In this document: one piece after another, positions 9,422 through 34,522 of the stretch
How positions within the stretch are numbered: the first letter of the stretch is position 1
Layout: the number at the start of each line of letters is the position of its first letter
Source of the DNA: Oscillibacter sp. ER4
GTDB lineage: Bacteria; Bacillota; Clostridia; Oscillospirales; Oscillospiraceae
DNA: 64,000 nucleotides
Direction of reading: 5' to 3'
Assembly: GCF_000765235.1 (NCBI RefSeq)
Contig: NZ_JPJG01000059.1
Coordinates: forward strand, 1-64,000
Made by a program: the position numbers and the translations under genes
Notes under the pieces: generated by a model
What the model saw: only the letters and a program-made list of their open reading frames with translations
Database searches by the model: none
What the model was told of the DNA's origin: nothing

Positions 9422-9424
9422 AAG

Positions 9425-14623: not shown

Positions 14624-14633
14624 GAGGTGCCCC

Positions 14634-15251: not shown

Positions 15252-15298
15252 GGGCAGCCGCTCGGCTGCTCTAATTTCATGCAAAGGAGGATAAGCAG

Positions 15299-17322: not shown

Positions 17323-17327
17323 CCTGA

Positions 17328-17353: not shown

Positions 17354-17379
17354 CTGTTTATCGAAAGGAGACGCACCCA

Positions 17380-17790: not shown

Positions 17791-17900
17791 CCGACTTCCT
17801 GACCGAATACGGGGAGGCCGTCGAGGAGGCCAAGCGGCTCCAAGCGAGCCGGCCGACTCGTGCGGCCAGCTTTAAGAAACCACACATCAGAAGGAGGTGA
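17677..17900 (+). CDS. -1 frame extension of the tail chaperone (E' part of E+E')
   Basis: The -1 frame is open from the Phe codon TTT at 17677-17679 to a TGA at 17898, with no usable start codon of its own. Slipping one base back at GAT TTT ATT re-reads TTT, then gives YFREVGGTLHPRQLRRAI and further helices with LTDFLTEYGEAVEEAKRL. The fused product would be about 173 residues. P2-like and lambda-like phages make gpE+E' or gpG-T by the same -1 shift before the tape measure gene. The slippery site is not a perfect XXXYYYZ heptamer, so the exact site is uncertain. Confidence 0.65.
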
Positions 17901-17905
17901 CGCAC

Positions 17906-19960: not shown

Positions 19961-20156
19961 TTATGTGGCGCAGGGCGGCGACACGTTCGACAGCATCGCG
20001 CTCGTCGCCTACAACGAGGAGCGCATGGCAAGCACCATCATCACAGCCAACCCCGACCTCAGCGACGTGCTGATCTTCGAGGGCGGCGAGGCTGTGCGGA
20101 TCCCGATCGTCGAGACCGTGGAGACGCCGGAGACCCTGCCGCCGTGGAGGAGGTGA
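19932..20156 (+). CDS. tail protein X (P2 gpX, LysM-like)
   Basis: 74 residues beginning inside the tape measure gene. VGFIDYVAQGGDTFDSIALVAYNEERMASTIITANPDLSDV is the LysM-like fold of P2 gpX, thought to sit at the baseplate hub and bind peptidoglycan. Order TMP, X, D, V, J, I is the classic P2 baseplate order. Confidence 0.85.
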   Translation: MSQQTVGFIDYVAQGGDTFDSIALVAYNEERMASTIITANPDLSDVLIFEGGEAVRIPIVETVETPETLPPWRR

Positions 20157-20160
20157 CGCC

Positions 20161-21081
20161 GTGAAGATCCTATACGAAGGCGTCGACATCTACCCGGACA
20201 TCAGCGTCCACCGCTGCTATCACGATATGTACGCCGAAAAGCAGAGCGACGAGCTACTGCTCAAACTCAACGACACCCGTGAGCTGTGGGACTCGTGGAA
20301 CCCAAAGAAGGGCGACACCATCGCCATCGAGGACGGCGCTGCCAAGACGGGCGAAATGTTCGTCGAGAGCGTCGTCCCCGAGTCCGGCATCATCACCCTG
20401 CGGGCCTATTCCATCCCGCAGTCTGCGAAGGATAAGCGGAGCAAATCGTGGGAAAAGGTCAAGTTCCTGCAACTGGCTCAGGAGATCGCCGGCCGCCACA
20501 GCCTGACGCTCGAGACCTACGGGATCACCGACCAGACCTACGACTACGTCGAGCAGAACAACCTCGCAGACTTCGCATTTTTTCAAAACCGCTGCACCCT
20601 CGAGGGCGCGGCGTTTCTGGTGTATGACGGCAAGCTGGTCGTCTACGACGAGGCGTACATGGAAAGCCAGCAGCCAGTCGACACCATCACCATCACCCCG
20701 GCCAATGACTTCGAGTACCGCGACGAGGGCACCAACGCCTACGGCTCGGCCGAAGCCGTCAACGGCGGTCTGACCGGCACCTTCGCAGCCCCGAACGGCG
20801 GCGACAAGGTGCTGCGCCGGATCCTACCCTTCCGCATGACTGACCAGAGCGAGGCCGACCGCTTCGCCAAGGGCCTCCTCCGGGGCGCCAACAAAAACGC
20901 GACCGTCGGCACCCTCTGGACGGGCTCGCTGCTGCGAGACTATGCGGCGGGATCTGTGGTCACGCTGGCGACCGATGGCGTTAAGTCGTGGGACGGCACA
21001 GCCTTCATCAGCCGGATCCGGCACGACTACGTCAAGACGCGGAGCAAGCTATACCTCCGCAAGCCACTGGAGGGATATTGA
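20161..21081 (+). CDS. baseplate hub / late control protein gpD-like
   Basis: 306 residues from a GTG preceded by GGAGGAGGTGACGCC. The sequence has the gpD/gp27-type hub features: an N-terminal beta domain with GDTIAIEDG, a central FQNRCTLEGAAFLVYDGKLVVYDE, and a C-terminal GLLRGANKNATVGTLWTG. In P2-like tails gpD forms the hub on which the spike gpV sits. Its stop overlaps the spike gene start (TGATG). Confidence 0.85.
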   Translation: MKILYEGVDIYPDISVHRCYHDMYAEKQSDELLLKLNDTRELWDSWNPKKGDTIAIEDGAAKTGEMFVESVVPESGIITLRAYSIPQSAKDKRSKSWEKVKFLQLAQEIAGRHSLTLETYGITDQTYDYVEQNNLADFAFFQNRCTLEGAAFLVYDGKLVVYDEAYMESQQPVDTITITPANDFEYRDEGTNAYGSAEAVNGGLTGTFAAPNGGDKVLRRILPFRMTDQSEADRFAKGLLRGANKNATVGTLWTGSLLRDYAAGSVVTLATDGVKSWDGTAFISRIRHDYVKTRSKLYLRKPLEGY

Positions 21082-21491
21082 TGAACAGCAACAACCAAAT
21101 GATCCAGAAGGGCAAGATCTCCAGCGTGGAGGGAAAGGCCGACAGGAACGGCGACAAAACCACGGCCAGAGTGCTCCCGAGCACAGCCGACAGCATGGTC
21201 ACGCGACCGCTGACGATCCCGTGGTATCTGCGCGGGGAGATGGGAAACCTGACCCCCGGCACAGAAGTCGCCTACGCCATGTTCGAGGACGGCACTGGCA
21301 TCATCCTCTCCCGCATGGACGGAGAGTGGGACGGTATCGTCCCGGGCGACATCACCGTCAAGAAGGGCGCGCTCACGATGCAGGACAAGGGCATCAGCGT
21401 CCCGTCGGCAGACGTGACCGCCACGGGCATCAGCCTGACCGGCCACACCCACACCGACAGCATGGGAGGCGGCACTTCTGGCCCACAGTAA
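21081..21491 (+). CDS. baseplate spike gpV-like protein
   Basis: 136 residues. An OB-like N-terminal half (KGKISSVEGKADRNGDKTTA) is followed by a beta-helical stretch (GDITVKKGALTMQDKGISV), ending in GHTHTDSMGGGTSGPQ. The HxH in the C-terminal tip is the metal-binding (iron) apex typical of P2 gpV/phi92 spikes that pierce the envelope. Confidence 0.9.
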   Translation: MNSNNQMIQKGKISSVEGKADRNGDKTTARVLPSTADSMVTRPLTIPWYLRGEMGNLTPGTEVAYAMFEDGTGIILSRMDGEWDGIVPGDITVKKGALTMQDKGISVPSADVTATGISLTGHTHTDSMGGGTSGPQ

Positions 21492-21503
21492 GGAGGGATA
21501 GAC

Positions 21504-22079
21504 ATGGCCGTCATGGCATCATGGAACGGCAAGACGTGGGGCGTCTCCAGCCAGAGGATCGCCGCCCTGAATGGCGTCTCTCACAGCGTCGAGCTCGACA
21601 CGGAAAACAGCGACGACAAAGCCGGATCCCCGGCGACCAAGACCAAGGCGCTCAAGCTGCAAAGCATGAGCTTCGACTTCGATCTGGCCGCCGCGGTCGG
21701 CTGCGACGTGCGCAGTGAGTACGAGTCGTGGACGGCGCTGGTCGGGCAGTATGCCCCCTTCTATCTGGCCGGCCGGCGCTTCGGCCCGGCCAACCTTCAG
21801 CTCACAGGCGTGAGCCTATCAGACACCAAGCTGGACAACCTCGGCAGGATCCTGACCGGCAAGATCACGATCAAGCTGACAGAGTACGCCGAGGAGGCCA
21901 GCAGCAAAAAGGCCAGTTCTGGAAAATCCAGCAGTAGCGGCAAGAGCGGCAGCAGCTCCAAGTCGGCGGCGGGCATCGCCACCTACAAGGAGCTCGGCAT
22001 CAGCTCCTCGGCTGTGAACGTCGGAGCCTCCAGCAGCGCCAAAGCATCCAAAAAGCCAACCAATGCGCAGCTCAAGTAA
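21504..22079 (+). CDS. tail/baseplate-associated protein (gpU-like role, family uncertain)
   Basis: 191 residues, ATG preceded by AAGGAGG. SWNGKTWGVSSQRIAALNGVSHSVELDTENSDDKAGSPATKTKAL and FYLAGRRFGPANLQLTGVS, then GRILTGKITIKLTEYAEE, describe a compact beta domain common in Clostridial myophages. The last 60 residues are a Ser/Lys/Gly-rich linker and a short helix, suggesting a tethered tail. Role is probably in the baseplate, given neighbours V and gp25; not proven. Confidence 0.6.
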   Translation: MAVMASWNGKTWGVSSQRIAALNGVSHSVELDTENSDDKAGSPATKTKALKLQSMSFDFDLAAAVGCDVRSEYESWTALVGQYAPFYLAGRRFGPANLQLTGVSLSDTKLDNLGRILTGKITIKLTEYAEEASSKKASSGKSSSSGKSGSSSKSAAGIATYKELGISSSAVNVGASSSAKASKKPTNAQLK

Positions 22080-22094
22080 AGCGAGGTGATCCCA

Positions 22095-22367
22095 ATGAAA
22101 GCATCTGGCAACGGAGCGCCCGAGATCTGTGTGCAGAACCTCCTAAAGACCATCCGCGGGGAGGTGCCCTATGAGCGCATCAAAGGGATCGACCGCACGC
22201 TGATCGACAAGCCGAGCGAAACCGCTGCGACCGATCTGGCCGCCGACGTGGAGTTCCTCGTGGAAACCTACGAGCCCCGCGTGCAGCTCAGTGACTCCGA
22301 CCTGAAGGCTATGACCGCTCAGGCCGGCGACTTCGAGCTGCGGGCCAGCATCGACAATATCACATGA
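22095..22367 (+). CDS. baseplate wedge protein (gpW/gp25-like)
   Basis: 90 residues from the ATG 6 nt after GAGGTG. Pattern CVQNLLKTIRGEVPYERIKGIDRTLIDKP and a C-terminal DFELRASIDNIT fits the gpW/gp25 lysozyme-like fold wedge proteins of contractile tails. Its stop overlaps a possible ATG of gpJ (ATGA). Confidence 0.85.
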   Translation: MKASGNGAPEICVQNLLKTIRGEVPYERIKGIDRTLIDKPSETAATDLAADVEFLVETYEPRVQLSDSDLKAMTAQAGDFELRASIDNIT

Positions 22368-22381
22368 AGGAGGTGAACAGC

Positions 22382-23773
22382 GTGAGCGACGCGACAAACA
22401 CCTACGGCGAGGACATCAAACTCACCACGACAGACGCGAGCACCCTATACAAGACCATCATCACCGAGCTCGAAAAGGGCGCCGGCGAGCCGCTCTACCC
22501 GGGCGACGAGCGCCGGATCTTCGGCGAGGCTCTCGTGCCCGTGTTCGTTGCCCTCTACAACAGCCTCAACGACGCCGGCCGGCAGACGCTCCTCCGCTAT
22601 GCGAGGGGCGAGGTACTGGACGCCATCGGCGAGCGACAGGATGTGAAACGACTGGAAGGCACACCGGCCAAGACGACCATGCGCTTCTCTGTCTCCACGC
22701 CGCAGGAGAAAAACATCATCATTCCGAAGTGGACGAAGGTGACGCCGGACAGCGAAAACTATTTTGCAACCGACGAGATCGCTGTGCTGCAAGCTGGCGC
22801 CTACTCTGTGGAGGTGCCGACCTCGGCCGTGAGCAACGGCACGAAGTTCAACGGCTACGCAGCCGGCACGATCACCACCCTTGTCGACCTGATCCCCTAC
22901 ATCGAGTCCGTCACCAATCTGACCGAAACGGCCGGAGGCGATGACGGCGAGCCCTACACCACCGAGGGCGACAACCGCCTCCGCGAGCGGATCCGTCTGG
23001 CGCCCGCCAAGAGATCCACCGCGGGCCCTGAACAGGCTTACATCTACTGGGTAATGACGGCCGACAGCTCCATCGTGGACGCAAAGGCCGTCAGCGAGAA
23101 GGAAACCGTCAGCGAGACCCTCACGGTCTACGACGGCAAAGCCTTCAAGGGCGGCGGCACACTTCTGACCGACACCCTCGTCGTGAAGGCCCACGGGCAG
23201 AGCACGGCGGCGGTCAAGGACACGGACTACACCGTCGACTACGCCGACGGCCTGCTGGCCATCACGCTCAAGGGCAGTCTCGCGGCTGCCGAAAGCATCG
23301 ACATCATCATCACCCGCACGCTGGAGGGCTGCGTCAAGATCGTGCCCCTGCTGGAAGGCGGCGGGATCCCCGACGCTGCCATGCTGGCGAAGGTGCTGGA
23401 CGTGGTCAACGCCAAGGACATCCGGCCACTCACTGACAAAGTGAGCGCCGTGCCCCCGGAGGTCGAGACCTACGACATCGAGATCGTGTACTACACCACG
23501 CCGAAGAACGAGGCCGAGGTGATCGCCAACGTCGAAGGCACCGGCGGCGCGATCGACCGCTACAACGAGTGGCAAGTCGCAGCCCTCGGCCGCGACATCA
23601 ACCCCGACCAGCTCCGCAAGCGGATCCTCTCGCCTTCGTGGGGCGAGAACCTGACCGGCGCCTTCCGCGTGGACGTCGTCAAGCCGACCTACAAGGCCCT
23701 CGACGACACGCAAGTCGCCAAGTTCAGCGGCCACCTGACTGTCAGCCACAAGGTCGAGAGTGAGGTGGTGTAA
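22382..23773 (+). CDS. baseplate protein gpJ-like with inserted beta domain
   Basis: 463 residues from the GTG placed 6 nt after AAGGAGGTG (an ATG at 22364 lies before that SD). EGDNRLRERIRLAPAKRSTAGPEQAYIYW is the hallmark of P2 gpJ/T4 gp6-type wedge proteins. P2 gpJ is about 300 residues; here about 75 extra residues (about 235-320) form a domain with KDTDYTVDYADGLLAITLK, similar to an insert in the sheath protein of this phage. gpJ joins the wedges into the baseplate ring. Confidence 0.88.
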   Translation: MSDATNTYGEDIKLTTTDASTLYKTIITELEKGAGEPLYPGDERRIFGEALVPVFVALYNSLNDAGRQTLLRYARGEVLDAIGERQDVKRLEGTPAKTTMRFSVSTPQEKNIIIPKWTKVTPDSENYFATDEIAVLQAGAYSVEVPTSAVSNGTKFNGYAAGTITTLVDLIPYIESVTNLTETAGGDDGEPYTTEGDNRLRERIRLAPAKRSTAGPEQAYIYWVMTADSSIVDAKAVSEKETVSETLTVYDGKAFKGGGTLLTDTLVVKAHGQSTAAVKDTDYTVDYADGLLAITLKGSLAAAESIDIIITRTLEGCVKIVPLLEGGGIPDAAMLAKVLDVVNAKDIRPLTDKVSAVPPEVETYDIEIVYYTTPKNEAEVIANVEGTGGAIDRYNEWQVAALGRDINPDQLRKRILSPSWGENLTGAFRVDVVKPTYKALDDTQVAKFSGHLTVSHKVESEVV

Positions 23774-24424
23774 ATGCGGCTCAATGAGACCGAGATGGTC
23801 AAGCTGCTGCCTGCGTGGATGCAGGAGGACGGCAGCGACAAGGGCCTCGCCACCGGCTGCGACATCATCAGCCGCGACGCCTATGCGCGCCTGAAGCTCC
23901 TGAGCAGGTGGGACAAGATCGACCAGCTCAACGATGCAGAGCTCGACGAAATGGCGTGGGAGCTGAACATCCAGTGGTATGACAGCACCGCGCCCATCGC
24001 AGTCAAGCGGGCCGTCATCCGCAGCAGCGACCGCGTCTACGCGAAACTCGGCACCCCATACGCCGTGGAGCAGATCGTGGCCGACTACTTCGGCACCGGC
24101 GAGGTCAGGGAGTGGTATCAGTACGGCGGGCAGCCGCATCACTTCAAGGTGCTGAGCGACAACCCGAGCCTCGTCAACAGCAATCTCGACCTGTTCCTGA
24201 AGCTGCTGCGGACGGTCAAGCGCCGCAGCTCGTGGCTCGACGCGATCCTGATCTGCCTGACCGGCGAAATGTTCCTCTATTCCGGCATGGCCGTCAGGGA
24301 TCACACCCAAGAGGTGCACGTCATGGGCAGCGACGAGATCCACATCTACCACGCGGCCGTCGTCCACGACAACAACCGCGAGACCGTCAGCATCGGCACC
24401 GACGCGGCGGTCATCTCAGACTAA
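23774..24424 (+). CDS. tail protein I (P2 gpI-like)
   Basis: 216 residues, ATG directly after the gpJ stop. LLPAWMQEDGSDKGLATGCD and the segment ELDEMAWELNIQWYDSTAPIAVKRAVI are the diagnostic gpI pattern (wedge protein linking baseplate and fibres). The C-terminal 60 residues are not part of the usual domain and may bind the fibre. Confidence 0.9.
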   Translation: MRLNETEMVKLLPAWMQEDGSDKGLATGCDIISRDAYARLKLLSRWDKIDQLNDAELDEMAWELNIQWYDSTAPIAVKRAVIRSSDRVYAKLGTPYAVEQIVADYFGTGEVREWYQYGGQPHHFKVLSDNPSLVNSNLDLFLKLLRTVKRRSSWLDAILICLTGEMFLYSGMAVRDHTQEVHVMGSDEIHIYHAAVVHDNNRETVSIGTDAAVISD

Positions 24425-24439
24425 GGAAAGGAGATAGAC

Positions 24440-25189
24440 ATGGCTGCATTTATCAACAACGACATCACCACCGCCGGCCTGATCGTTCTGGCGAAGGGCG
24501 TGGCCGGCCAGAAGATCAACTACACCAAGATCGTCCTCGGCGATGGCTACCTCGAGGAGGGCCAGACGCCCCGCACCCTCACCGGCGTGGTCAGCCCGAA
24601 GGCGACCGTCGACATCACGAAGCTGAAGATCAACGGCGACGGCACCGTGGCCGTCGGCGGCATCTTCACCAACGGCGACGAGACCGATGGCTTCTACTAC
24701 CGCGAGCTCGGCCTTTATGCCGAAGATCCCGATCCCGAGGTCGGCGAGGTGCTGTACTGCTACGGCAACTGCGGTGATCTGGCCGAGTGGATCCCGCCCT
24801 CCGGCGGCGCCACCATCGTCGAGAAAACCATCGACATCGTCACCGCGATCGGCACGGCCACCAACGTGACCGCCTACATCCCCGCCGACGCCTACGCCAC
24901 CAAAGAGGACTACGAGACCTACAAGGCCATCGCCCTCGGCGCGCAGGCTACGGCCGAGGAGGCTCTGGCACTCGCCCGGCAGGCCATCGCAATCGCGCAG
25001 GCTGCCGAGGCATCGGCCAACGACCTGAGCAACGCGGTCGGCCAGAACACCAGCAAGATCGCAACGCTGTGGGACGCCGTTTTCAGCGACATCACAAGTA
25101 ACCCGTTCCAGATCACATTCGCAGACTTAACAGGCATCACGCTGAAGTCTGGCGTCTGGAACGCTTCACTTCAAAGGCTCGAGTGCTGA
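24440..25189 (+). CDS. tail fibre protein with N-terminal tail-collar fibre domain
   Basis: 249 residues, ATG preceded by GGAAAGGAG. The N-terminal 150 residues (AAFINNDITTAGLIVLAKGVAGQKINYTKIVLGDG) are the conserved baseplate-attachment domain of tail-collar fibres. A helical, Ala-rich coil follows (AQATAEEALALARQAIAIAQAAEASA) and ends in a short tip. With no large receptor-binding domain of its own, it may serve as the stalk to which the DGR-diversified protein docks. The stop overlaps the next start (TGATG). Confidence 0.85.
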   Translation: MAAFINNDITTAGLIVLAKGVAGQKINYTKIVLGDGYLEEGQTPRTLTGVVSPKATVDITKLKINGDGTVAVGGIFTNGDETDGFYYRELGLYAEDPDPEVGEVLYCYGNCGDLAEWIPPSGGATIVEKTIDIVTAIGTATNVTAYIPADAYATKEDYETYKAIALGAQATAEEALALARQAIAIAQAAEASANDLSNAVGQNTSKIATLWDAVFSDITSNPFQITFADLTGITLKSGVWNASLQRLEC

Positions 25190-25446
25190 TGGGAAACTGC
25201 TACAACTACACCCCGATCCCACCGGCCGAAGCCTCCTGCATCATCGCGCACCTGTTCGTCGAGCTGGCCCTGCCCTGCTCCTGCTGCAAGCGGGAGGACG
25301 GCGTCATCGTCATTCAGGGCAAGACATACGACGGCAGCAGCGCCCGCGTCACAATCAAAGGCGAGGAGGTGAGATACTACGGCAAGCAACGGACACTCGC
25401 GGCCATACGAGCGGGCCAATGTAGGCCGCCCGCCCTTCGGCCGTGA
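25189..25446 (+). CDS. small Cys-containing protein upstream of avd
   Basis: 85 residues from the ATG that overlaps the fibre stop (an in-frame GTG lies at 25183). Hydrophobic HLFVELALPCSCC near residue 22, then a short beta stretch DGVIVIQGKTYDGSSARVTIKGEEV. No family recognised. It is probably translated by coupling with the fibre gene and ends 13 bases before avd. Whether it belongs to the DGR is unknown. Confidence 0.5.
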   Translation: MGNCYNYTPIPPAEASCIIAHLFVELALPCSCCKREDGVIVIQGKTYDGSSARVTIKGEEVRYYGKQRTLAAIRAGQCRPPALRP

Positions 25447-25459
25447 CAAACTGCCCGAG

Positions 25460-25858
25460 ATGCAGGTCATCACGGACGCCAAGGAGCTCGAGAAACACAC
25501 CTACATCAAGACCAGAAACCCGGCCGTTTTCCCGAAGAAGGAGCGGCTCGGTCTGGCACAGAGGATGATGAACGAGGCCAGCGACCTCGTCGCCGATCTG
25601 ATGGAGGCCAACGATCTGCTCCTGACGGATCCCGAGGAGCGTGAGCTCAGGTATCGCGCGCAGCGGTCGGCGCTTCGCAACTGCCGAAAGCTGATCCACC
25701 ACATCGAGCTCGCGCATGAGATCCTCAGCGGCTTCAGCGATGACGCCTTTGCATACTGGGCGAAGATGGCGGCCGGCGTGAAGAACCAGACCGCCAAATG
25801 GTACAAAACCGATAAAGAGAGGGCCGCCAAGCTGGACGCGCAGAAGCGTCACCAGTGA
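25460..25858 (+). CDS. avd: Avd-like DGR accessory protein (four-helix bundle)
   Basis: 132 residues of almost pure helix with many basic residues: LGLAQRMMNEASDLVADLMEA, RAQRSALRNCRKLIHHIELAHEIL, then FAYWAKMAAGVKNQTAKWYK and a basic tail. Size, basic helices and position immediately 5' of the template repeat and reverse transcriptase match Avd, the pentameric accessory protein that binds the DGR RT and template RNA and is needed for cDNA synthesis. The ATG lacks a good SD; the frame is open further upstream to 25373 without a standard start, so the true start is uncertain. Confidence 0.8.
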   Translation: MQVITDAKELEKHTYIKTRNPAVFPKKERLGLAQRMMNEASDLVADLMEANDLLLTDPEERELRYRAQRSALRNCRKLIHHIELAHEILSGFSDDAFAYWAKMAAGVKNQTAKWYKTDKERAAKLDAQKRHQ

Positions 25859-25890
25859 GGCGGCCCTCGGGGTATGCCTTGTTTTTTCGT

Positions 25891-25984
25891 GCCGGCTCGG
25901 CCAACAACGCCCGCAACGTCAACACCGATGGCACTCTGAACAGGAACAACGCCTACAACGGCAACAACGGCCTGCGCCCCGCTT
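25891..25984 (+). repeat. DGR template repeat (TR)
   Basis: This 94-bp noncoding stretch matches 27965-28058 (VR) without gaps. All 69 non-adenine positions are identical, while 17 of the 25 adenines differ in the VR (10 to G, 6 to T, 1 to C). That is the signature of adenine-specific mutagenic retrohoming. Most adenines sit in AAC codons when read in the VR frame, giving the largest amino-acid range. The 3' 16 bp, GGCCTGCGCCCCGCTT, is adenine-free and identical in both, so it is the likely IMH-type anchor. The TR lies between avd and the RT gene, the usual place. Confidence 0.97.
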
Positions 25985-26178
25985 CGATGGATCGCCCGAC
26001 TTATTAACCGCCCGGAGACGGACGGCGAACACTGTGCCCCATCATCCAAGGAAGGCATATCCCTCCCGCAGCCGCGGCCGTCTGACCGGCCCGGTCATGG
26101 GTAAACACAAGACCGCCGATGCTCCCGGCGGCGCACGCAAAGCGTGGCCGGAGCTATACACGGCGGGGAGACTTTTCA
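25985..26178 (+). other. TR-RT spacer of the DGR RNA
   Basis: 194 bases between TR and the RT start. No convincing gene. In known DGRs this spacer is part of the structured template RNA that primes and guides cDNA synthesis. Several GC-rich dyads are present; the segment carries the RT ribosome binding site GGGGAG at its end. Confidence 0.5.
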
Positions 26179-27402
26179 ATGGAGAATATCGTAAACAGCA
26201 CCATTGCGCTCTACAAAGCATACCGCAAAACCCGCTGCGGAAAGCGCGACAACCCGACCGCCATGCGCTACCGCATGGAGGCCATCGAGCGCACCGTCGC
26301 CCTCTCTGAGAGGCTCCAGCGGCGCGACTATTCCTTCGGGCCCTACTACCCCTTCAAGGTGTACGAGCCCAAGGAGCGGCTCGTCCTCGCCATCGACTTC
26401 GAGGGCAAAGTCGTCCAGCACTCGCTCTGCGACAACGTCCTCGAGCCGGCGTTCTCCCGGCGTTTCATCCGGGACAACTACGCCGGCCAGATCGGAAAAG
26501 GCACCCACGACGGCCTCGACCGTCTGGCTGCGGCCATGCGCCACTATTTCTTCAGCCGAAAGGCAGCAGACGAAGCAGCCCGCAAGGCTGCCGGCCTGCC
26601 GCCCCGGCCGATGAACGAGTGGGACTACGCCGACGGCTGGGTACTGAAGGGCGATTTTTCAAAGTTCTTTTACACCCTGCTCCATTCCTACTGTTACGAA
26701 ACGGCCCGCCGGGCCCTGAAGTGGCTGAAGGATCCCGAGCTGATCGACTTCGCTGAGTGGCTGCTGTGGCTCATAATCGACAGCACGCCAGACCCCGGCA
26801 TCCCGATCGGCAACCAGTCGAGCCAACTGCTCGCGCTGCTCTATCTGGACGCCTTCGACCACTGGCTGAGGGATGACCGCGGCCTCGTATATGGCAGGTA
26901 CATGGACGACTTCTACATCATCCACAGCGACAAGCTGCTGCTCCGGCAGATACTCAAGGAGATCGAGGCGTACATCAAGCCGCTCGGCCTTCGGCTGAAC
27001 GGCAAGACGCAGATCCTCCCGCTGAAGAACGGCATCGACTTCCTCGGTTTTCACACCTACCTCACGCAGACCGGCAAGGTCGTGAGAAAAGTGCGAGCCA
27101 AGAGCATCGACAACATGAAGCGCAAGATCCGCAAGTTCCGCGGGCTGGTGGACTCCGGCAAGATGACACTCGACAGCGTCGTGCAATCCTACGCGAGCTG
27201 GACGGGCCACATCTCACACGGCAACACCTACCACCTGCGGCAGAACATGGACGCCTATTTCTTCAGCTATTTCCCGGAGCTCAAACCATCACCGAAAGGA
27301 GACACAACTCATGGCCCAAAAACTGAGCAACCTCGCAAACAAGTCGAAGGTCAAGTTCGGCAGCCTGTACGGCAGCCCGATCGTCTGGATCGTGGCCGAT
27401 AA
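26179..27402 (+). CDS. DGR reverse transcriptase
   Basis: 407 residues from the ATG 8 nt after GGGGAG (an in-frame ATG at 26119 has no SD). Group II-like RT motifs run in order: RLVLAIDFEGKVVQHSLCDNV, FSRRFIRDNYAGQIGKGTH, the catalytic WVLKGDFSKFFYTL, then IPIGNQSSQLLALLYLD and RYMDDFYIIHSD (YMDD active site). The IGNxSSQ form in place of the QGxxxSP of retroviral and retron RTs is diagnostic of DGR RTs. The thumb-like C-terminus has GLRLNGKTQILPL and DFLGF. It copies the TR RNA with errors at adenines. The last 92 bases overlap the target gene in another frame. Confidence 0.97.
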   Translation: MENIVNSTIALYKAYRKTRCGKRDNPTAMRYRMEAIERTVALSERLQRRDYSFGPYYPFKVYEPKERLVLAIDFEGKVVQHSLCDNVLEPAFSRRFIRDNYAGQIGKGTHDGLDRLAAAMRHYFFSRKAADEAARKAAGLPPRPMNEWDYADGWVLKGDFSKFFYTLLHSYCYETARRALKWLKDPELIDFAEWLLWLIIDSTPDPGIPIGNQSSQLLALLYLDAFDHWLRDDRGLVYGRYMDDFYIIHSDKLLLRQILKEIEAYIKPLGLRLNGKTQILPLKNGIDFLGFHTYLTQTGKVVRKVRAKSIDNMKRKIRKFRGLVDSGKMTLDSVVQSYASWTGHISHGNTYHLRQNMDAYFFSYFPELKPSPKGDTTHGPKTEQPRKQVEGQVRQPVRQPDRLDRGR

Positions 27403-29020
27403 GAACCACGCAGGCTACCCCTCCAACAGCGTCACGCTCGTGACCAACCAGATCATCAAGATGCTGTGCTTCGACGCAACAGAACCGAGTAACGGCAACA
27501 GCGACCGCCGCGGCTACGGCAACAACCGCTACATCTACTCGAACCTGCGCCAGTGGCTCAACAGCCCCGCGGCTGCCGGCCAGTGGTACACCGCACAGCA
27601 CTCCGCAGACCAGACGCCGGACTCCTCCCACGTCTGGAACGGCGTCAACCCGTACAGTGGCCTCGCCGGTTTTCTGAACGCCTTCACCGCCAACGAGCGG
27701 GCGGCTCTGCTGAACACCACCATCACGGTCGGCAAGAGCTCCACAGACGGCGGCGGGACGGAGACCTGCACGGACAAGATCTTCCCCCTGTCCTGCACTG
27801 AGGTCGGCCTGAGCGGTGACCACGTCTGCGGCAGCAAGCTGGCGATCTTCAGCGACAACAACAGCCGCATCGCCACCGTGACGGCCTCCTGCGTCGCCAA
27901 TTCCAACTATTCCAGCAACCCGGGCTCTGGCGCCGCGTGGTACTACTGGCTGCGGGACGCCTATGCCGGCTCGGCCGGCAACGCCCGCGGCGTCTACACC
28001 GGTGGCACTCTGGGCTGGGACTGCGCCTACTTCGGCTACCGCGGCCTGCGCCCCGCTTGTAATCTGTCCTCTGATCTCCTGATCTCCGACTCCGTCGACT
28101 CGGATGGATGCTATACAGTGATCTACAATCAGGCGCCCACAGCGCCGTCGTCCATCACTGTCCCGAGCGAAGTGCTCGGCGGCGAGAACCTGAGCATCTC
28201 GTGGGCGGCCTCCACCGACCCCGACGGCAACCTCTCCGGCTACGTTCTGGAGCGCAAGGTCGGGAGCGGCACATGGGCGCAGATCTACAAGGGATCCTCG
28301 CGCAGCTACACCGACGCCATCACCTACGGATGGACGAGCGTGCAGTACCGCGTCAAGGCATACGACGCCGCCGGCGCGGAGAGTGCGTACACCACCAGCG
28401 CCACCCGCACCGTCACCAATAACCGACCGCCCGTCATCAGCGGCACGGACGGCGCCCTCGGCAGCTTCAGCACGGCGGCCCCGTCCTACGAGTACACCGT
28501 CACCGACGCCGACGGCCATCAGGTCGACGTCGTGGAGATGCTGGACGGCGTCACGCTGCGCAGCTACACCGTGACCCTCGGCCATACCAACACGCTGACG
28601 ATCGGCTCCGAGGCGTGGCTGAAGGTCGTGAACGGCAGCCACACCCTGAAGATCGTGGCGACCGACGCCAAGGACGCCAGCGTCACCCGCACGCTGACCT
28701 TCACCAAGGCCGTCACGTCCGTCGAGTTCGAGCAGACCCTCGCTATGGAGGCCGACGCCATGCCGACCAAGGCCCTCGCCAACATTCAGGGCAATTTCCC
28801 GGCCGGCTGCACGCTTCAGGTCTGGATCTGCAACAACGGCAACGACGCGAGCCCGACGTGGGAGGACATCACGCAGAAGGTCAGAGCCGGCCAGAAGCAC
28901 TACTTCACAAACAAGACCAAGACGGCCGCAGCGTGGGGCGTCAAGGTTAAGGCCAAGCTGCTCCGCGGCTCTGCTACGGAGACCTGCTACATCCAGTCGA
29001 TCGGAGGTAACTTTGCATGA
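27311..29020 (+). CDS. DGR target: variable receptor-binding protein (DUF6273 CLec-like plus Fn3-like domains)
   Basis: 569 residues, ATG preceded by AAAGGAGACACAACTC. Residues about 15-260 form a DUF6273/C-type-lectin-like domain (RYIYSNLRQWLNS, GFLNAFTANERAALL, DKIFPLSCTEVGL, AWYYWLRDAY). Residues 219-249 are the VR, ending with GLRPACNLSSDLLI. After it come a fibronectin-III-like domain (about 270-365; SISWAASTDPDGNLSGYVLE) and a second Ig-like domain (about 370-470), then a small C-terminal beta region. Most DGR targets carry the VR at the C-terminus; here it is in the first half. It is likely the phage receptor-binding protein at the tail tip. Confidence 0.93.
   Translation: MAQKLSNLANKSKVKFGSLYGSPIVWIVADKNHAGYPSNSVTLVTNQIIKMLCFDATEPSNGNSDRRGYGNNRYIYSNLRQWLNSPAAAGQWYTAQHSADQTPDSSHVWNGVNPYSGLAGFLNAFTANERAALLNTTITVGKSSTDGGGTETCTDKIFPLSCTEVGLSGDHVCGSKLAIFSDNNSRIATVTASCVANSNYSSNPGSGAAWYYWLRDAYAGSAGNARGVYTGGTLGWDCAYFGYRGLRPACNLSSDLLISDSVDSDGCYTVIYNQAPTAPSSITVPSEVLGGENLSISWAASTDPDGNLSGYVLERKVGSGTWAQIYKGSSRSYTDAITYGWTSVQYRVKAYDAAGAESAYTTSATRTVTNNRPPVISGTDGALGSFSTAAPSYEYTVTDADGHQVDVVEMLDGVTLRSYTVTLGHTNTLTIGSEAWLKVVNGSHTLKIVATDAKDASVTRTLTFTKAVTSVEFEQTLAMEADAMPTKALANIQGNFPAGCTLQVWICNNGNDASPTWEDITQKVRAGQKHYFTNKTKTAAAWGVKVKAKLLRGSATETCYIQSIGGNFA
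27965..28058 (+). repeat. DGR variable repeat (VR) inside the target gene
   Basis: 94 bp matched to the TR at 25891-25984. All 17 differences fall on template adenines; none fall elsewhere. In protein terms, template residues such as N, N, N, D, N, R, N, N, N, N, N became G, G, Y, G, G, W, D, C, F, Y, R. The similarity stops sharply on both sides. Eight adenines are unchanged. Confidence 0.97.
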
Positions 29021-29187
29021 TTAAGCACAGAGCTGACAGCATCAAAGAGCTGAACGAGAAACAGGCCGCAGAGGCCAAGAAGGACAAAACCATCGCCGAG
29101 CAGGCTGACACCATCGAGCTGCTGAAAGGCTGCATCATGGAGCTGGCCGACGTGGTCTACGGCGACGGAGGGGAGGTAACAGCATGA
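29017..29187 (+). CDS. short coiled-coil protein after the DGR target
   Basis: 56 residues, overlapping the target stop (ATGA) with GGAGG 10 nt upstream. Almost wholly charged helix: SIKELNEKQAAEAKKDKTIAE and QADTIELLKGCIMELADVVYG. No family recognised. It could be a chaperone or trimerisation aid for the receptor-binding protein. It ends by overlapping the next start. Confidence 0.6.
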   Translation: MIKHRADSIKELNEKQAAEAKKDKTIAEQADTIELLKGCIMELADVVYGDGGEVTA

Positions 29188-29348
29188 GCAAGATCGTCGA
29201 GCTGTACGTCAAGGAGCTGACCCGCGAAGGCTCCACCATGACCATCAACGACGTCCCGAAGAAACTGCGCAAGCAGGTCAAGGACGCCATCGCTGCCATC
29301 GAGGCAGCCGCAAACGCTGGCACCGCGAAGGAAGGGGCGAGCGAATGA
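29184..29348 (+). CDS. small CD1375-like phage protein
   Basis: 54 residues, ATG overlapping the upstream stop with GGGGAGG before it. KIVELYVKELTREGSTMTINDVPKKLRKQVKDAI resembles the short CD1375/XkdX-type proteins found after tail fibre genes in Clostridia, where a VPxxL helix motif is typical. Function unknown. Confidence 0.6.
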   Translation: MSKIVELYVKELTREGSTMTINDVPKKLRKQVKDAIAAIEAAANAGTAKEGASE

Positions 29349-29404
29349 TCGCCCGGGCCCTCGCGTGGCTATTATTAAAAATTGCAGGAAAGGAGGAGCG
29401 TGAA

Positions 29405-29536
29405 ATGCTGGTACGTCTGTATGCAGGCGAGATCATCATGGGCCGCATCACCGAGGACAACGTCCCCGCGAAGCTGAAGGCCCGCGTGCACAAGTATCTC
29501 GTCGACATGGGCTACTTCGACGACGTCGAGGAGTAA
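29405..29536 (+). CDS. small XkdX/CD1375-like protein
   Basis: 43 residues from the ATG after AAAGGAGGAGCGTGAA. An in-frame ATG at 29345 would include this SD inside the gene. MLVRLYAGEIIMGRITEDNVPAKLKARV has the same VPxxLK helix as the preceding gene, so the two may be paralogues. A perfect terminator follows, closing the tail operon. Confidence 0.65.
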   Translation: MLVRLYAGEIIMGRITEDNVPAKLKARVHKYLVDMGYFDDVEE

Positions 29537-29548
29537 GCCCAACAACAA

Positions 29549-29580
29549 GGAGGGCCGCGTCCTGCGGCCCTCCGGCTTTT
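29549..29580 (+). terminator. terminator closing the tail/DGR block
   Basis: Perfect 10-bp stem GGAGGGCCGC/GCGGCCCTCC with a 5-nt loop, followed by GGCTTTT. Confidence 0.8.
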
Positions 29581-29593
29581 ATGAGGTGACACA

Positions 29594-29959
29594 ATGATCG
29601 AAATCAACATCGGCGCGCTCGTCGTCCTTATGGGGATCCCGACGGCCGTGACCGGCTTCTGCTTCTGGATGCTCGAGCACAGGATCCAGAAGCGCGAGAA
29701 GCAAAAGGAGGCCGAGGAGGCCAAACGACAGAAAGAGGCAGCGGCCCGAGAGCGTGCCCGTGAAGATCTCCAGATCATCACCATTCAGGGCACGTCGGCA
29801 GCCATCGCCCTCGGCGAGGCGACGGCCCGGGCCGTGCAGCGCATCCCTGACGCGCATTGTAACGGGGATATGCACGCGGCCCTCGACTACGCTGCCAAAA
29901 TCAAACACGCGCAGAAGGACTTCCTCACCAGTCAGGGGATCCACGCGATCATCGACTAA
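29594..29959 (+). CDS. membrane-anchored coiled-coil phage protein
   Basis: 121 residues. One N-terminal membrane helix (about residues 5-27, IGALVVLMGIPTAVTGFCFW), then a long charged coil (HRIQKREKQKEAEEAKRQKEAAARERARE) and a soluble end with IPDAHCNGDMHAALDYAAK. It begins the lysis module before two holin-like genes. Possible spanin-like or antiholin role; not established. Confidence 0.6.
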   Translation: MIEINIGALVVLMGIPTAVTGFCFWMLEHRIQKREKQKEAEEAKRQKEAAARERAREDLQIITIQGTSAAIALGEATARAVQRIPDAHCNGDMHAALDYAAKIKHAQKDFLTSQGIHAIID

Positions 29960-29972
29960 GGAGGTGAGCAGC

Positions 29973-30281
29973 ATGGCCGCAAAGAAGCGCCGGCGCAAGC
30001 GTAAAAAGAAAATCGAGGCGAGCAAAAAGCTCGCATACTGGGCGGCCAGCGTGGCAACGCTCAGCGCAGCCAGCTCTCTGCTGCTCTCTGCCTTCGGGCG
30101 CGACCCGGTCGGTGAGCTGACCGGCACCATCTTCACCGCCTGCGTCGGCTATCTAATCACATACGCCGGCAAGAGCCTCGGCGAGAAAATCAGCCGAAAC
30201 CGCCACAGGCTCGACGCCGACGGCAACCCGATCCCGGATCCGTCCGGGGACACTCTCAACAATGAGGAGGCACAAGGATGA
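29973..30281 (+). CDS. holin-like membrane protein
   Basis: 102 residues from the ATG after AAGGAGGTGAGCAGC. A very basic N-terminus (KKRRRKRKKKIEASKK) is followed by two hydrophobic segments (LAYWAASVATLSAASSLLLSAF and LTGTIFTACVGYLITYAG) and a charged tail, a holin-like plan. It overlaps the next holin by four bases. Confidence 0.6.
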   Translation: MAAKKRRRKRKKKIEASKKLAYWAASVATLSAASSLLLSAFGRDPVGELTGTIFTACVGYLITYAGKSLGEKISRNRHRLDADGNPIPDPSGDTLNNEEAQG

Positions 30282-30592
30282 ACACCATCGACATCACCCC
30301 CATCGTCAACGCAGCCCTCGCCCTGATCGGCGCCGGCGTCAGCGTTTTCCTGATCCCGTGGCTGAAGAAGCAGACCACCGAGGCACAGCGCAAGGAGCTG
30401 ACCGCGTGGGTAAAGATCGGCGTCGCTGCCGCTGAGCAGCTCTACGTCGGACAGGGCCGCGGCGAGGAGAAGAAGCAGTACGTCCTCGACTTCCTGAAGC
30501 AGAAGGGCTTCAAGGTCGACGAGGAAAGCGTCGTCAACGCGATCGAGGCAATCGTCAAGCAGCTCAACACTGAGGGCCTGACCATCGAATAA
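30278..30592 (+). CDS. phage holin, LLH family
   Basis: 104 residues. One N-terminal membrane helix (NAALALIGAGVSVFLIPWLKK) and the conserved amphipathic part WVKIGVAAAEQLYVGQGRGEEKKQYVLDFLKQKGF, typical of LLH-type holins. It would form the lesion that releases the amidase. A terminator follows at once. Confidence 0.85.
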   Translation: MNTIDITPIVNAALALIGAGVSVFLIPWLKKQTTEAQRKELTAWVKIGVAAAEQLYVGQGRGEEKKQYVLDFLKQKGFKVDEESVVNAIEAIVKQLNTEGLTIE

Positions 30593-30597
30593 CGGAG

Positions 30598-30622
30598 AGG
30601 GCGGGCTCCGGCCCGCCCTTTT
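30598..30622 (+). terminator. terminator after the holin
   Basis: Perfect stem GGGCGGGC/GCCCGCCC with the loop TCCG and a TTTT tail. Confidence 0.75.
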
Positions 30623-30646
30623 CTTGCTTGTAAAGGAGGTAAACCC

Positions 30647-30751
30647 ATGAAAAACCAGAACACCGACGACATCAAGCTGAAGCCCGGCGAGACCATCACA
30701 GACGAGACTCTCGACGAGCTGACCGGCGGGAAAGGAGACGACAATGAGTAA
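30647..30751 (+). CDS. 34-residue peptide with a double-glycine (LTGG) motif
   Basis: ATG 6 nt after AAAGGAGG; the product ends GETITDETLDELTGGKGDDNE. The LxDELTGG pattern resembles double-glycine leader peptides of bacteriocins and other RiPPs, and short phage peptides of this kind recur in front of lysin genes. The core after GG is only six residues, so it is not a complete bacteriocin. It overlaps the amidase gene by eight bases. Confidence 0.65.
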   Translation: MKNQNTDDIKLKPGETITDETLDELTGGKGDDNE

Positions 30752-31745
30752 CAGCCCTCTGGTGGTCTACACCAAGCTCAGCCCGAACCACTCGGGCAAG
30801 CGCACCAAGAAGATCGACACCATCACTATTCACTGCATGGCGGGCAACTGCTCCGTCGAGACCTGCGGCAACCTGTTCGCCAGCTCTGCGCGGCAGGCGT
30901 CCAGCAACTACGGCATCGGCACCGACGGCCGGATCGCCCTGTACGTCGACGAGGCAAACCGCTCGTGGTGCACCTCGTCCAACGCCAACGACCAGCGGGC
31001 CGTCACCATCGAAGTCGCCAACAACGGCGGCGCGCCTGACTGGCCCGTCTCCGCGAAGGCATACGCCGCGCTGCTGGATCTCGTGACCGACATCTGCAAG
31101 CGAAACGGCATCAAGCGCCTCGTCTGGTCGACCAGAAAAAACGACCGCGTGAACCACCTGAACGGCTGCAACATGACCGTGCACAGGGACTACGCGAATA
31201 AGAGCTGCCCGGGCGACTACCTCTACAACCGCCACGGCCAGATCGCCGCCGAAGTCAACAAGCGCCTCGGCGTCAAGGATGCAGGCAGCAGCACCGGCGG
31301 CCAGACCTCCGGCAACACAGAGACCGGCCTGAAGGTCGGCGACGTGGTCGACTTCAAGGGCACGCAGCACTACACCAGCGCGGCGGCCAAGGACGCCAAG
31401 ATCTGCAAGCCCGGCAAGGCCACCATCACGGCCATCGCGGCCGGCAAGGCGCACCCGTACCACCTGAAGGCGGTCGGCGGCGGCTCCACCGTTTACGGCT
31501 GGGTAAACGCTGCGGACATCTCGACCGGCAGCACAGGTACGGCCACGAGCTACCGCGTGCGGACGACGGCCGACGTGCTGAACATCCGCAAGGGCCCCGG
31601 CACCAACTACGGCGTCGCCGGCCAGATCAAGGGCAAGGGCATCTACACCATCGTCGCCGAAGCCGCAGGCCCCGGCGCGACCAAGTGGGGCAAGCTCAAG
31701 AGCGGCGCGGGCTGGATCTCTCTGGACTACGTCACGAAACTCTAA
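30744..31745 (+). CDS. endolysin: N-acetylmuramoyl-L-alanine amidase with C-terminal binding domains
   Basis: 333 residues. The N-terminal amidase_2 domain has the zinc ligands in TITIHCMAGN and VHRDYANKSCPGDYL plus the glycan-binding GIGTDGRIALYVDE. After a Gly/Ser/Thr linker come a basic LKVGDVVDFKG domain (about 196-255), also seen in other Clostridial phage lysins, and an SH3b domain (YRVRTTADVLNIRKGPGTNY) that would bind the wall. It cuts the amide link between MurNAc and the stem peptide at lysis. It has no signal peptide, so the holin is needed. Confidence 0.92.
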   Translation: MSNSPLVVYTKLSPNHSGKRTKKIDTITIHCMAGNCSVETCGNLFASSARQASSNYGIGTDGRIALYVDEANRSWCTSSNANDQRAVTIEVANNGGAPDWPVSAKAYAALLDLVTDICKRNGIKRLVWSTRKNDRVNHLNGCNMTVHRDYANKSCPGDYLYNRHGQIAAEVNKRLGVKDAGSSTGGQTSGNTETGLKVGDVVDFKGTQHYTSAAAKDAKICKPGKATITAIAAGKAHPYHLKAVGGGSTVYGWVNAADISTGSTGTATSYRVRTTADVLNIRKGPGTNYGVAGQIKGKGIYTIVAEAAGPGATKWGKLKSGAGWISLDYVTKL

Positions 31746-31766
31746 AACCGCATAGAAAAGCAGAAA

Positions 31767-31797
31767 CCCGCCCGGAGATCCCGGGCGGGCTTTTTCT
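31767..31797 (+). terminator. terminator between amidase and the convergent TM2 gene
   Basis: Perfect 9-bp stem CCCGCCCGG/CCGGGCGGG with a 5-nt loop and CTTTTTC. It closes the late transcript. Confidence 0.85.
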
Positions 31798-31810
31798 GTT
31801 ATGTGGGGCT

Positions 31811-32314
31811 TTACTCCTCAGCGTCGGGATCCGGCGCTTCACCGGCAGCGGCGAGCTCGGCCTCTGTGGGCTGGAACCGCAGCACACGGCCCTCGGAGTC
31901 ATAGAAACCGCCGAGCAGGATGGTGAAAATATCGACCAGCCAGCCGATCCCGCAGGCCCCGGCCGTCAGCAGCCAGATGACGCCTGTGCCGGTTTTCCCG
32001 ACATAGAACCGATGGACACCGAAGAAGCCGAGGAAGATGCACAGCAGCAGCGCCACCGTCTTGCTTTTCGGCGACGTCGGCCGCTGCGCTGCGGGGATGC
32101 TGACCGCGCCCTGCTGCGCGCCGGACTTCCCGCCGGAGCTCGTCGTATATGACAGACCCGTCCCGGGGATCCCGACGGTCGTGTGGCTTTTCCCCGTCGT
32201 GCTGACCGTGTGCTTCAGGCCCTTCGGGCCGAAGCTGATGCTCGCGCTCTTTTTGTTCAGGTTTACCCGGACACCCGGGGCCACCTTAAAGCTGCGTCTA
32301 AACCTTGTACCCAT
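31811..32314 (-). CDS. DUF4236 plus TM2-domain membrane protein (lysogenic accessory gene)
   Basis: 167 residues on the opposite strand to the phage genes. The N-terminus ([27 protein letters not shown]) is a DUF4236 domain. Residues about 85-140 are a TM2 pair: [33 protein letters not shown] and then a second helix. It has its own upstream region with repeats, so it is probably expressed in the lysogen. Possible roles are superinfection exclusion or another lysogenic conversion function; this is inference from orientation and location. Confidence 0.8.
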
Positions 32315-32346
32315 GCTTTTCCCTCCTATGTGCGCTTTTTAGCGTT

Positions 32347-32418
32347 TAGTCATCTTTGGCATAATATTACCACGCCAAAACTGGTAAAGTCAATATTGCA
32401 TAGTCATCTTTAGCATAA
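32347..32418. promoter_or_regulatory. divergent regulatory region with two direct repeats and a dyad
   Basis: TAGTCATCTTTGGCATAA at 32347-32364 recurs at 32401-32418 with one change, 54 bp apart. Between them lies the dyad TTACCA (32367-32372) and TGGTAA (32382-32387). The array separates the minus-strand TM2 gene from the plus-strand HTH gene, so it probably holds operators for both. Confidence 0.65.
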
Positions 32419-32436
32419 AGGGAGGCGAGGGCTGCG

Positions 32437-32676
32437 AAAATATACAAACCAGACGGCAGGTGCAACATCTCCGGGGAGAGAGTCAGGGAGGAGCGACTGC
32501 GGGCAAACCTGTCACAGGAACAGCTCGCCTACAAGCTCCAGATCATCGGGCTGGACGTCACGCAGAAGGTCATCAGCAGGATCGAGAACGGCGGCCGAGT
32601 CGTCGCTGACTACGAGCTGGACTATCTGGCGACCGCTCTCGGCACCACCATCAACCACCTGCTCGGGAAAGAATGA
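32437..32676 (+). CDS. XRE-type HTH regulator without a standard start codon
   Basis: The reading frame from about 32437 to the TGA at 32674 gives IYKPDGRCNISGERVREERL, NLSQEQLAYKLQIIGLDVTQ and VISRIENGGRVVADYELDYL, a clear Cro/C1-type helix-turn-helix ending HLLGKE. No ATG, GTG or TTG occurs in frame. The SD GGGAGG at 32420-32425 is placed for the CTG at 32432, which is one base out of frame. One more A in the run at 32437-32440 would join CTG to this frame. So it is either a one-base deletion or a non-standard start. It would control lysogeny. Confidence 0.7.
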   Translation, partial: KIYKPDGRCNISGERVREERLRANLSQEQLAYKLQIIGLDVTQKVISRIENGGRVVADYELDYLATALGTTINHLLGKE

Positions 32677-32681
32677 GAAAA

Positions 32682-32713
32682 CCGCACGGCAGCGACGCCG
32701 TGCGGCTTTTTTT
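32682..32713 (+). terminator. terminator after the HTH gene
   Basis: Perfect 9-bp stem CCGCACGGC/GCCGTGCGG with a 6-nt loop, followed by a C and seven T. Confidence 0.85.
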
Positions 32714-32756
32714 GTGGAAAAACGCGGGAAAATGTTGAAAATCTGCCGAATTATGC

Positions 32757-32785
32757 TTGACATTATAGAGCAAACGCTCTATAAT
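32757..32785 (+). promoter_or_regulatory. consensus promoter overlapped by a perfect 10-bp operator palindrome
   Basis: TTGACA at 32757-32762, exactly 17 bp, then TATAAT at 32780-32785: a full sigma-A consensus. The spacer and -10 form the perfect inverted repeat ATTATAGAGC (32762-32771) and GCTCTATAAT (32776-32785) around AAAC. A repressor bound here would cover the promoter, so this is the best candidate for the main lytic/lysogenic switch in this block. Confidence 0.85.
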
Positions 32786-32855
32786 ATAATCACAGGCAAG
32801 GGATAGCCGAGTACAGAAAGAAAGGAGAGCAAAACCGCGGAAAGGAGGCAAAGCC

Positions 32856-32969
32856 GTGGATACTGAGCAGATGAAAAAACTGCTCGAGCTGCTGGAACAG
32901 GCTCTAAAGTGTGAACAGGTTGCCACCATTACGATCACAATAAAGCCGAACCAAAAGCCCAAGCAGTAA
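32856..32969 (+). CDS. 37-residue phage protein
   Basis: GTG start 8 nt after AAAGGAGG. The product is a leucine-rich helix (MKKLLELLEQALKCEQVA) plus TITITIKPNQKPKQ. It is the only gene between the consensus promoter and the next terminator, so it is the first product of that promoter. Function unknown; a small antirepressor or regulator is possible. Confidence 0.6.
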   Translation: MDTEQMKKLLELLEQALKCEQVATITITIKPNQKPKQ

Positions 32970-32978
32970 GGTCGAAGG

Positions 32979-33010
32979 ACGGCGGGAAAAATCCCGCCCG
33001 CCGTTCCTTT
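32979..33010 (+). terminator. terminator after the 37-residue gene
   Basis: Stem ACGGCGGG/CCCGCCGT with a 10-nt loop, then TCCTTTT. Confidence 0.7.
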
Positions 33011-33056
33011 TCATTATAACCACGAAACCACGGCAAAGTCAAGCGGGAGGAACAAC

Positions 33057-33320
33057 ATGGACATCTCGATCAAAGTGACCTACAAAAGCGAGGGGCTGCA
33101 AAAGCTCCGCAAGGCTGCCGGCCTGTCTCAGTCTCAGCTCGCCGATCTGGCTGGGATCAAGGTGCAGGTGCTCCAGCAGTACGAGCGCGGCGCCCGGGAC
33201 ATCAACGGCGCAAAGCTGCCGACGCTGCTGAAGATCTGCAACGCGCTGGAGTGCAGGCTGGCTGACATCATCACAGACGAGGAGACGCTCGAGCTCCTGA
33301 AAAAGTACGAGGAACACTGA
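33057..33320 (+). CDS. XRE-family HTH regulator
   Basis: 87 residues, ATG preceded by GGGAGGAAC. GLQKLRKAAGLSQSQLADLAGI with QVLQQYERGARDINGAKL is a classic Cro/C1 helix-turn-helix; the rest (LLKICNALECRLADIITDEETLELL) is the usual C-terminal helix of short XRE proteins. It is closed off by its own terminator. Probably a regulator of the phage or of the adjacent transposase gene. Confidence 0.85.
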   Translation: MDISIKVTYKSEGLQKLRKAAGLSQSQLADLAGIKVQVLQQYERGARDINGAKLPTLLKICNALECRLADIITDEETLELLKKYEEH

Positions 33321-33329
33321 CACACAGAA

Positions 33330-33355
33330 GGGGCGGCCGGCGGGCCGCCCCTTTT
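33330..33355 (+). terminator. terminator between HTH and transposase genes
   Basis: Perfect 9-bp stem GGGGCGGCC/GGCCGCCCC with a 4-nt loop and a TTTT tail. Confidence 0.85.
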
Positions 33356-33378
33356 CTTTTATCACGGAGGGGAACACA

Positions 33379-34428
33379 ATGGGACAGCACTGGAGCCATC
33401 TGACGCCGACCAAGCGCATCCAGCTCGACGCCTTCATCCGCGCGGGAATGAAGCCGACGGACATCGCCAAGGAGCTCGGCGTGCATCATACGACGATATA
33501 CCGCGAGCTAAAGCGATGCACCTATGAGCACCGAAACAGCGACTACACCACCGAAATCAGATACAACCCCGACGGCGCGCAGGCTCGATATGAGGCAAAC
33601 CTCCGCGCCAAGGGCCCGGATCTGAAGATCGGCAACGACTACGAGCTGGCCGACTACCTGATCGCAAAGATCCGCGACGAGAAGTACAGCCCGGAGGCTG
33701 CGATCGGTGAGGCCGAGGTCAAGGGCTGGCCATTCAAGACCCACATCTGCGCGAGTACCGCCTACAACTACATCCGCGGCGAGATCTTCGGCGACGAGCT
33801 GACCGTCTCCATGCTGCCGCAGCACGGCAAGCGCCACCAGCCGGAGCGCCCGGCCGGATCCATGCCACGCAAGCCCGCGGGCCGGAGCATCGAAGATCGC
33901 CCCGAGCACATCAACGACCGCAGCACCTTCGGTCACTGGGAGATGGACAGCGTCGAGAGCTGCCAAGGCGTCAGCAACACCTACATCGTGATGACTGAGC
34001 GCAAGACCCGCCGCGAGATCATCATCCCCTCGCCGGATAAGACGAGTGCCAGCGTCGTCGCTGCCCTCGACACCCTCGAGAAGAAAGTCGGATCCAAAGT
34101 GTTCCCACTGATCTTCCAGTCGATCACCTGCGACAATGGCTGCGAGTTTGCAGACGCCGCCGGGATCGAGCGCAGCGTCACCGGCCGGGGATCCCGCACT
34201 GAGGTCTACTACTGCCACCCGTACCGCCCGAGCGAGCGCGGATCCAACGAGAACCAGAACGGCCTCATACGTCGGCACCTGCCGAAGGGCACCGACCTGA
34301 GCACAATCTCCTACGAGGAAACCAAGCGGATCGAGGACTGGCTGAACAACTATCCCCGCAAAATGTTCGGTTATCTGTGCTCCGAGCAGCTTTTCCGGGA
34401 AGAAATCGCCCTCATTCTGGCCTCATAA
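33379..34428 (+). CDS. IS30-family DDE transposase at the prophage right end
   Basis: 349 residues, ATG preceded by CACGGAGGGG. An N-terminal HTH (AKELGVHHTTIYRELKRC) and the DDE residues in HWEMDSV, CDNGCEF and ERGSNENQNGLIRRHLPKG give the IS30 catalytic pattern; the length is normal and the frame intact. Base composition matches the phage genes. No IS30-type terminal repeat is visible directly upstream, as would be expected for a plain inserted IS, and host-like sequence starts just after the gene. It could therefore serve as the phage's own integration/transposition enzyme; this is inference. Confidence 0.9.
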   Translation: MGQHWSHLTPTKRIQLDAFIRAGMKPTDIAKELGVHHTTIYRELKRCTYEHRNSDYTTEIRYNPDGAQARYEANLRAKGPDLKIGNDYELADYLIAKIRDEKYSPEAAIGEAEVKGWPFKTHICASTAYNYIRGEIFGDELTVSMLPQHGKRHQPERPAGSMPRKPAGRSIEDRPEHINDRSTFGHWEMDSVESCQGVSNTYIVMTERKTRREIIIPSPDKTSASVVAALDTLEKKVGSKVFPLIFQSITCDNGCEFADAAGIERSVTGRGSRTEVYYCHPYRPSERGSNENQNGLIRRHLPKGTDLSTISYEETKRIEDWLNNYPRKMFGYLCSEQLFREEIALILAS

Positions 34429-34522
34429 AAAATATTTTTGCTTTTTTGTGCATTTACTCTTGACAAATGGCCGGCAGCACACGCTGCGTGCGGCAAAAGT
34501 CCCGCAGGCCGAGCGAAATGAT
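34429..34522. other. AT-rich junction between prophage and host island
   Basis: After the transposase stop comes an A/T-rich run and GCATTTACTCTTGACAA at about 34451-34467, then sequence belonging to the degraded minus-strand zinc-ribbon gene. The prophage right end probably lies between about 34430 and 34480. The left end is outside the window, so the terminal repeats cannot be compared here. Confidence 0.5.

Follow-up and report, generated by a model that had tools for sequence, protein, structure and literature searches.

A diversity-generating retroelement in an nd4-like prophage of Oscillibacter sp. ER4, with one template repeat and two likely targets

Diversity-generating retroelements (DGRs) with two targets each have been described in the phages nd4 and nd12 by Baykov et al. 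2023 (PMC10743442), who found the template repeat (TR) of nd4 in 54 genomes and both targets in 39 of them. They proposed a receptor-binding role like that of Mtd for the second product, target 2, and reported that it is devoid of the Mtd parts that attach to the tail fibre. Lelie, CP11 and Lagaffe likewise have two variable repeats (VRs) each (Gulyaeva et al. 2024, PMC11792537); at sampling, the reads of Lelie, Lagaffe_CP and CP11 showed no variation in the same study. For Lagaffe, an integrase of the IS30 type was noted in Cornuault et al. 2018 (PMC5883640). A search of the main texts of PMC10743442 and PMC11792537 found no remark on the location of the second target, nor the word 'early'.

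Here we describe a related element in a stretch of 64,000 nucleotides of Oscillibacter sp. ER4 (contig NZ_JPJG01000059.1), referred to as the window. With a probability of about 0.93, we read it as the DGR of a temperate, nd4-like phage, now a prophage in a gut-type genome, with one TR serving two VR targets, a tentaclin and a DUF6273 protein encoded among early genes. Positions 3-34471 of the window are colinear with nd4 at ~96% identity (90% in the initial 0.8 kb); the remainder of the nd4-like genome is found on the minus strand of contig C89 (29-10157), except for an unmatched segment at 8602-9758. Where the ends of the two contigs come together there is a poly-G run, and each host junction of the prophage bears a copy of the 15-bp direct repeat CGGCAGCACACGCTG. 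From the colinearity with nd4 and the shared poly-G end we infer that window and C89 hold a single prophage. At its right end (33379-34486), the other end being on C89 near 10157, there is an IS30-family transposase gene; by analogy with the proposal for Lagaffe, this transposase is probably the integration enzyme. Phage MT835922 stops at the same phage base as the prophage, and the DNA beyond differs. An nd4-like prophage of Flavonifractor sp. AGMB03687 (L093 7342-14283) is apparently deleted, retaining target 2, a partial exonuclease gene and the IS30-type transposase; an RT was not found in that genome. The features of the element are collected in Table 1.

Table 1. Features of the DGR and of the prophage that carries it (window coordinates unless a contig is named)
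Feature	Position	Strand	Evidence or remark
nd4-like prophage, right-hand and structural part	1..34471	+	colinear with nd4, ~96%
avd, accessory variability determinant, 132 aa	25460..25858	+	phrog_3206 'Avd protein of DGR', E 2.1e-27
Template repeat (TR)	25891..25984	+	94 bp, 25 adenines; ungapped match to VR1
DGR reverse transcriptase (RT), 407 aa from likely start	26179..27402	+	phrog_1423, E 9.5e-116; RVT_1; motifs; tree
Target 1, tentaclin-type protein, 569 aa	27311..29020	+	DUF6273, phrog_10993, orthology with nd4
Variable repeat VR1	27965..28058	+	17/25 adenines changed, 0/69 others
Stretch 3' of VR1	28059..28087	+	resembles stretch 3' of VR2, not TR; candidate homing signal
Early part of the prophage (target 2, VR2)	contig C89 1-10157	-	colinear with nd4
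VR2	C89 6973-7049	-	77 bp against TR 25908-25984; 13 changes, all at TR adenines

An earlier note, made from the letters of the window, had recognised a complete DGR there, and its avd, TR, RT and VR-bearing target are indeed all intact, with strong family matches for the open reading frames. The RT frame spans 26119-27402. The motifs that the note had taken as fitting DGR RTs are present, PIGNQSSQ being of the GxxxSQ type and accompanied by YMDD, whereas two outgroup RTs of group II intron type carry QGxxxSP and YADD instead. In a maximum-likelihood tree, the placement that the note had proposed as a check, the window RT groups with four IMG/VR RTs at 100/100 support, and every DGR-type RT, the long-branched Brt of BPP-1 among them, lies across the tree from the group II pair. 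The RT gene and the long form of target 1 share ~92 bases, read in different frames, where the former ends and the latter begins (27311-27402); the nd4 annotation places the start of target 1 later than this long form. Target 1 is the orthologue of nd4 target 1 and matches phrog_10993 over its full length (E 1.9e-256). It is Hoc-like, and its DUF6273 domain covers residues 39-253 and includes the VR. In tentaclins a VR-bearing lectin domain at the N-terminus precedes Ig-like domains. For target 1, an AlphaFold model built on a four-row alignment gave no reliable fold over the first 275 residues, and the lectin fold was not recovered; beyond them, a model of moderate quality is beta-rich.

Realignment of TR and VR1 reproduced every figure given for the pair. 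The changes are 10 A>G, 6 A>T and 1 A>C, with no gaps over the 94 bp, and the chance that 17 randomly placed differences would all hit adenines is 5e-13. No other site in the window comes close to the TR, the runner-up matching at 39/69 non-A positions, and decoy scans in which C, G or T was the free base, or in which the TR was reversed, returned 0 matches. The nd4 VR2 region aligns with window 27982-28087, so that the likeness extends past the end of VR1; the stretch beyond it is a candidate homing signal, conservation at the protein level being the alternative cause of the likeness. Folding of the DNA 3' of the VR gave no convincing hairpin, and the sole Rfam match is a sub-threshold RT-15 on the opposite strand.

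While the DGR parts described for the window stand, the system as the note drew it is incomplete, since its TR also serves a target that lies beyond the window. VR2 lies in the gene of a 234-aa DUF6273 protein, target 2 (30965-31669 in nd4), which is followed on C89 by a DnaQ-type exonuclease gene and then by the genes of Gam, Erf and SSB. The repeats and their adenine specificity, the type of the RT, Avd and the second VR can all be read directly from the DNA. In the proposed scheme, TR RNA would be copied by the RT together with Avd, with misreading of adenines, and the mutated cDNA would replace VR1, in the tentaclin gene beside the RT, which encodes a late, virion-type protein; it would also replace VR2 in the early replication and recombination cluster of the same phage. 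Copying of this kind is established DGR biology. Target 2 is likely to be cytoplasmic because it has no long hydrophobic stretch. The model of a target-2 homologue (pLDDT 75) matches the N-terminal part of 9qa6, a bacterial IgA peptidase, with Z 14.6, and a series of C-type lectins at Z ~5, the latter values by themselves being no proof. In the early targets the VR domain is followed by a charged C-terminal tail (L006 6767-7471, minus; L119 6506-7153; L122 31798-33060; L089 4676-5404), helical at 188-232 in the single model made, and this tail could be a docking part.

Nine phage lineages proved to have a remote second VR whose changes are entirely, or nearly entirely, confined to adenines: the nd4-like prophage, nd12, Lelie/Toutatis, Brigit, Lagaffe, Shimadzu, a prophage on contig C74 (on only 5 changes, chance 8e-4), a genome of the same genus (G011) and Petralouisia muris, where TR and VR2 are on separate contigs. 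The C74 prophage is a second prophage of the Oscillibacter genome, with its own complete DGR and adjacent target (L005 5557-9029), and its remote VR lies near 15217-15297 of L088, ~19 kb from the RT. In the TR search C74 had appeared as a possible trans target, which we rejected, the match being the TR of this separate DGR with its own RT. Contig C33 of G011 bears a further target-2-like gene (35076-35579, minus, in L091); the contigs read hold no TR for it, and a DGR serving it, should there be one, must lie elsewhere. One VR each, with no remote VR2, was found in the first 50 kb of Taranis, in Idris and in 50 kb of phiARM81mr; for BPP-1 the search for further VRs covered the first 6 kb of the genome.

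Wherever neighbours were read, the second-target gene is in the early half of the genome, mostly adjoining genes for an exonuclease, Gam, Erf/RecT, SSB or replication. These neighbours are exonuclease, Gam, ERF and SSB in Lagaffe, Erf and SSB in Roseburia phage Shimadzu, and exonuclease and RecT in Brigit; for G011 and for Petralouisia the adjoining gene encodes a replication initiation protein. In nd12, target 2 is a fusion with DUF3310. Early and late targets can be of the same domain type, FGE-sulfatase in Lagaffe and DUF6273 in Shimadzu, which is what a single TR that has to suit the two would lead one to expect. This arrangement bears on the view of Baykov et al. 2023, in which both targets are virion receptor binders, target 2 being Mtd-like as in BPP-1, and the early position has no functional meaning. 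The predicted placement of its VR in a C-lectin-like domain is compatible with that view, as is the resemblance of both Lagaffe targets to Mtd-type FGE-sulfatase proteins, and the role was proposed by the authors who described the system. Against it stand the early neighbourhood, replication initiation genes included, the DUF3310 fusion of nd12 and the missing tail-fibre attachment parts, and we consider it possible but rather doubtful.

The early-gene location favours instead an intracellular variable binder over an Mtd-like receptor binder. That target 2 binds host or rival-phage factors inside the infected cell has, in our opinion, about an even chance of being correct; its early expression is deduced from gene position, and the alternatives would be transcription from a late promoter or a function in the virion. 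For the tentaclin, variation would change virion binding. More tentatively, and at somewhat less than even odds, a single DGR may, in gut Clostridia phages, repeatedly have been linked both to a late virion protein and to an early cytoplasmic, lectin-type hypervariable binder, directed for instance against host defences or rival phages, which would represent a new class of DGR target. Should target 2 act intracellularly, surface recognition would not be all that phage DGRs diversify.

The note had also judged the element recently active, arguing that no background changes had built up. Activity is supported, but we dropped the argument as proof of recency: it is too weak, because a cassette divergence of ~0.7-0.9% leads to only ~0.5 expected changes in 69 positions. 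Relatives provide better evidence than missing background. The search for VR variants changed only at TR adenines, which the note had suggested, was run on assembled sequences, and the VRs of near-identical phages differ almost only there. Between the window and the MT835922 cassette, 18/94 VR positions differ against 25/3607 others; for nd4 the counts are 15 and 33. When each TR was compared with its own VR1 (eight pairs), 104/169 adenines differed and 5/447 other positions, and in nine VR2 copies, each set against the closest known TR, 99/189 adenines and 2/504 others. Neither outcome that the note had named as refuting, equal change at non-adenine positions or an RT outside the DGR clade, was seen in the assembled sequences. 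Moreover, non-adenine markers of the TR reappear in the VR1 of the same locus in three cases (L021, L025 and L026), a prediction of copying from TR to VR. L022 is an exception: its TR differs from VR1 at three non-adenine positions, the TR having changed and the VR looking older. These comparisons, with near-identical phages from other samples, support DGR activity, and the window element is a complete and apparently working DGR.

It could be argued that the cassette, although intact, is now inactive in the lysogen and that the VR differences were left by previous rounds, in keeping with the invariant reads of Lelie, Lagaffe_CP and CP11 (PMC11792537); the intact RT, Avd and TR and the strong VR differences between near-identical phages make this unlikely. 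A reading with no retroelement, by plain duplication and divergence or by gene conversion, has nothing in its favour beyond the existence of repeats and is refuted by the adenine-only pattern in VR1, in VR2 and across relatives, together with the empty decoy scans.

The window DGR is thus of an already published type, to which it adds one integrated nd4-like prophage. It shares with nd4 (OR777945) the order avd-TR-RT-target, an identical TR, and targets 1 and 2 of 569 and 234 aa, the latter bearing VR2, and differs from it in being an integrated prophage with VR1 and VR2 sequences of its own, the cassettes being ~98.7% and the genomes ~96% identical. The Faecalibacterium phages Lelie, CP11 and Lagaffe resemble it in having one TR and two VRs. 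Lagaffe further resembles it in its integrase, which is of the IS30 type, and in the position of its second target directly before the exonuclease, Gam, ERF and SSB genes, but its targets are of the Mtd/FGE-sulfatase type, while Lelie differs in an RT that is ~40% identical. Finally, Bordetella phage BPP-1 has in common with the window Avd, TR, an RT with GxxxSQ and YMDD, and an adenine-driven VR, whereas its target, Mtd, is encoded on the far side of avd.
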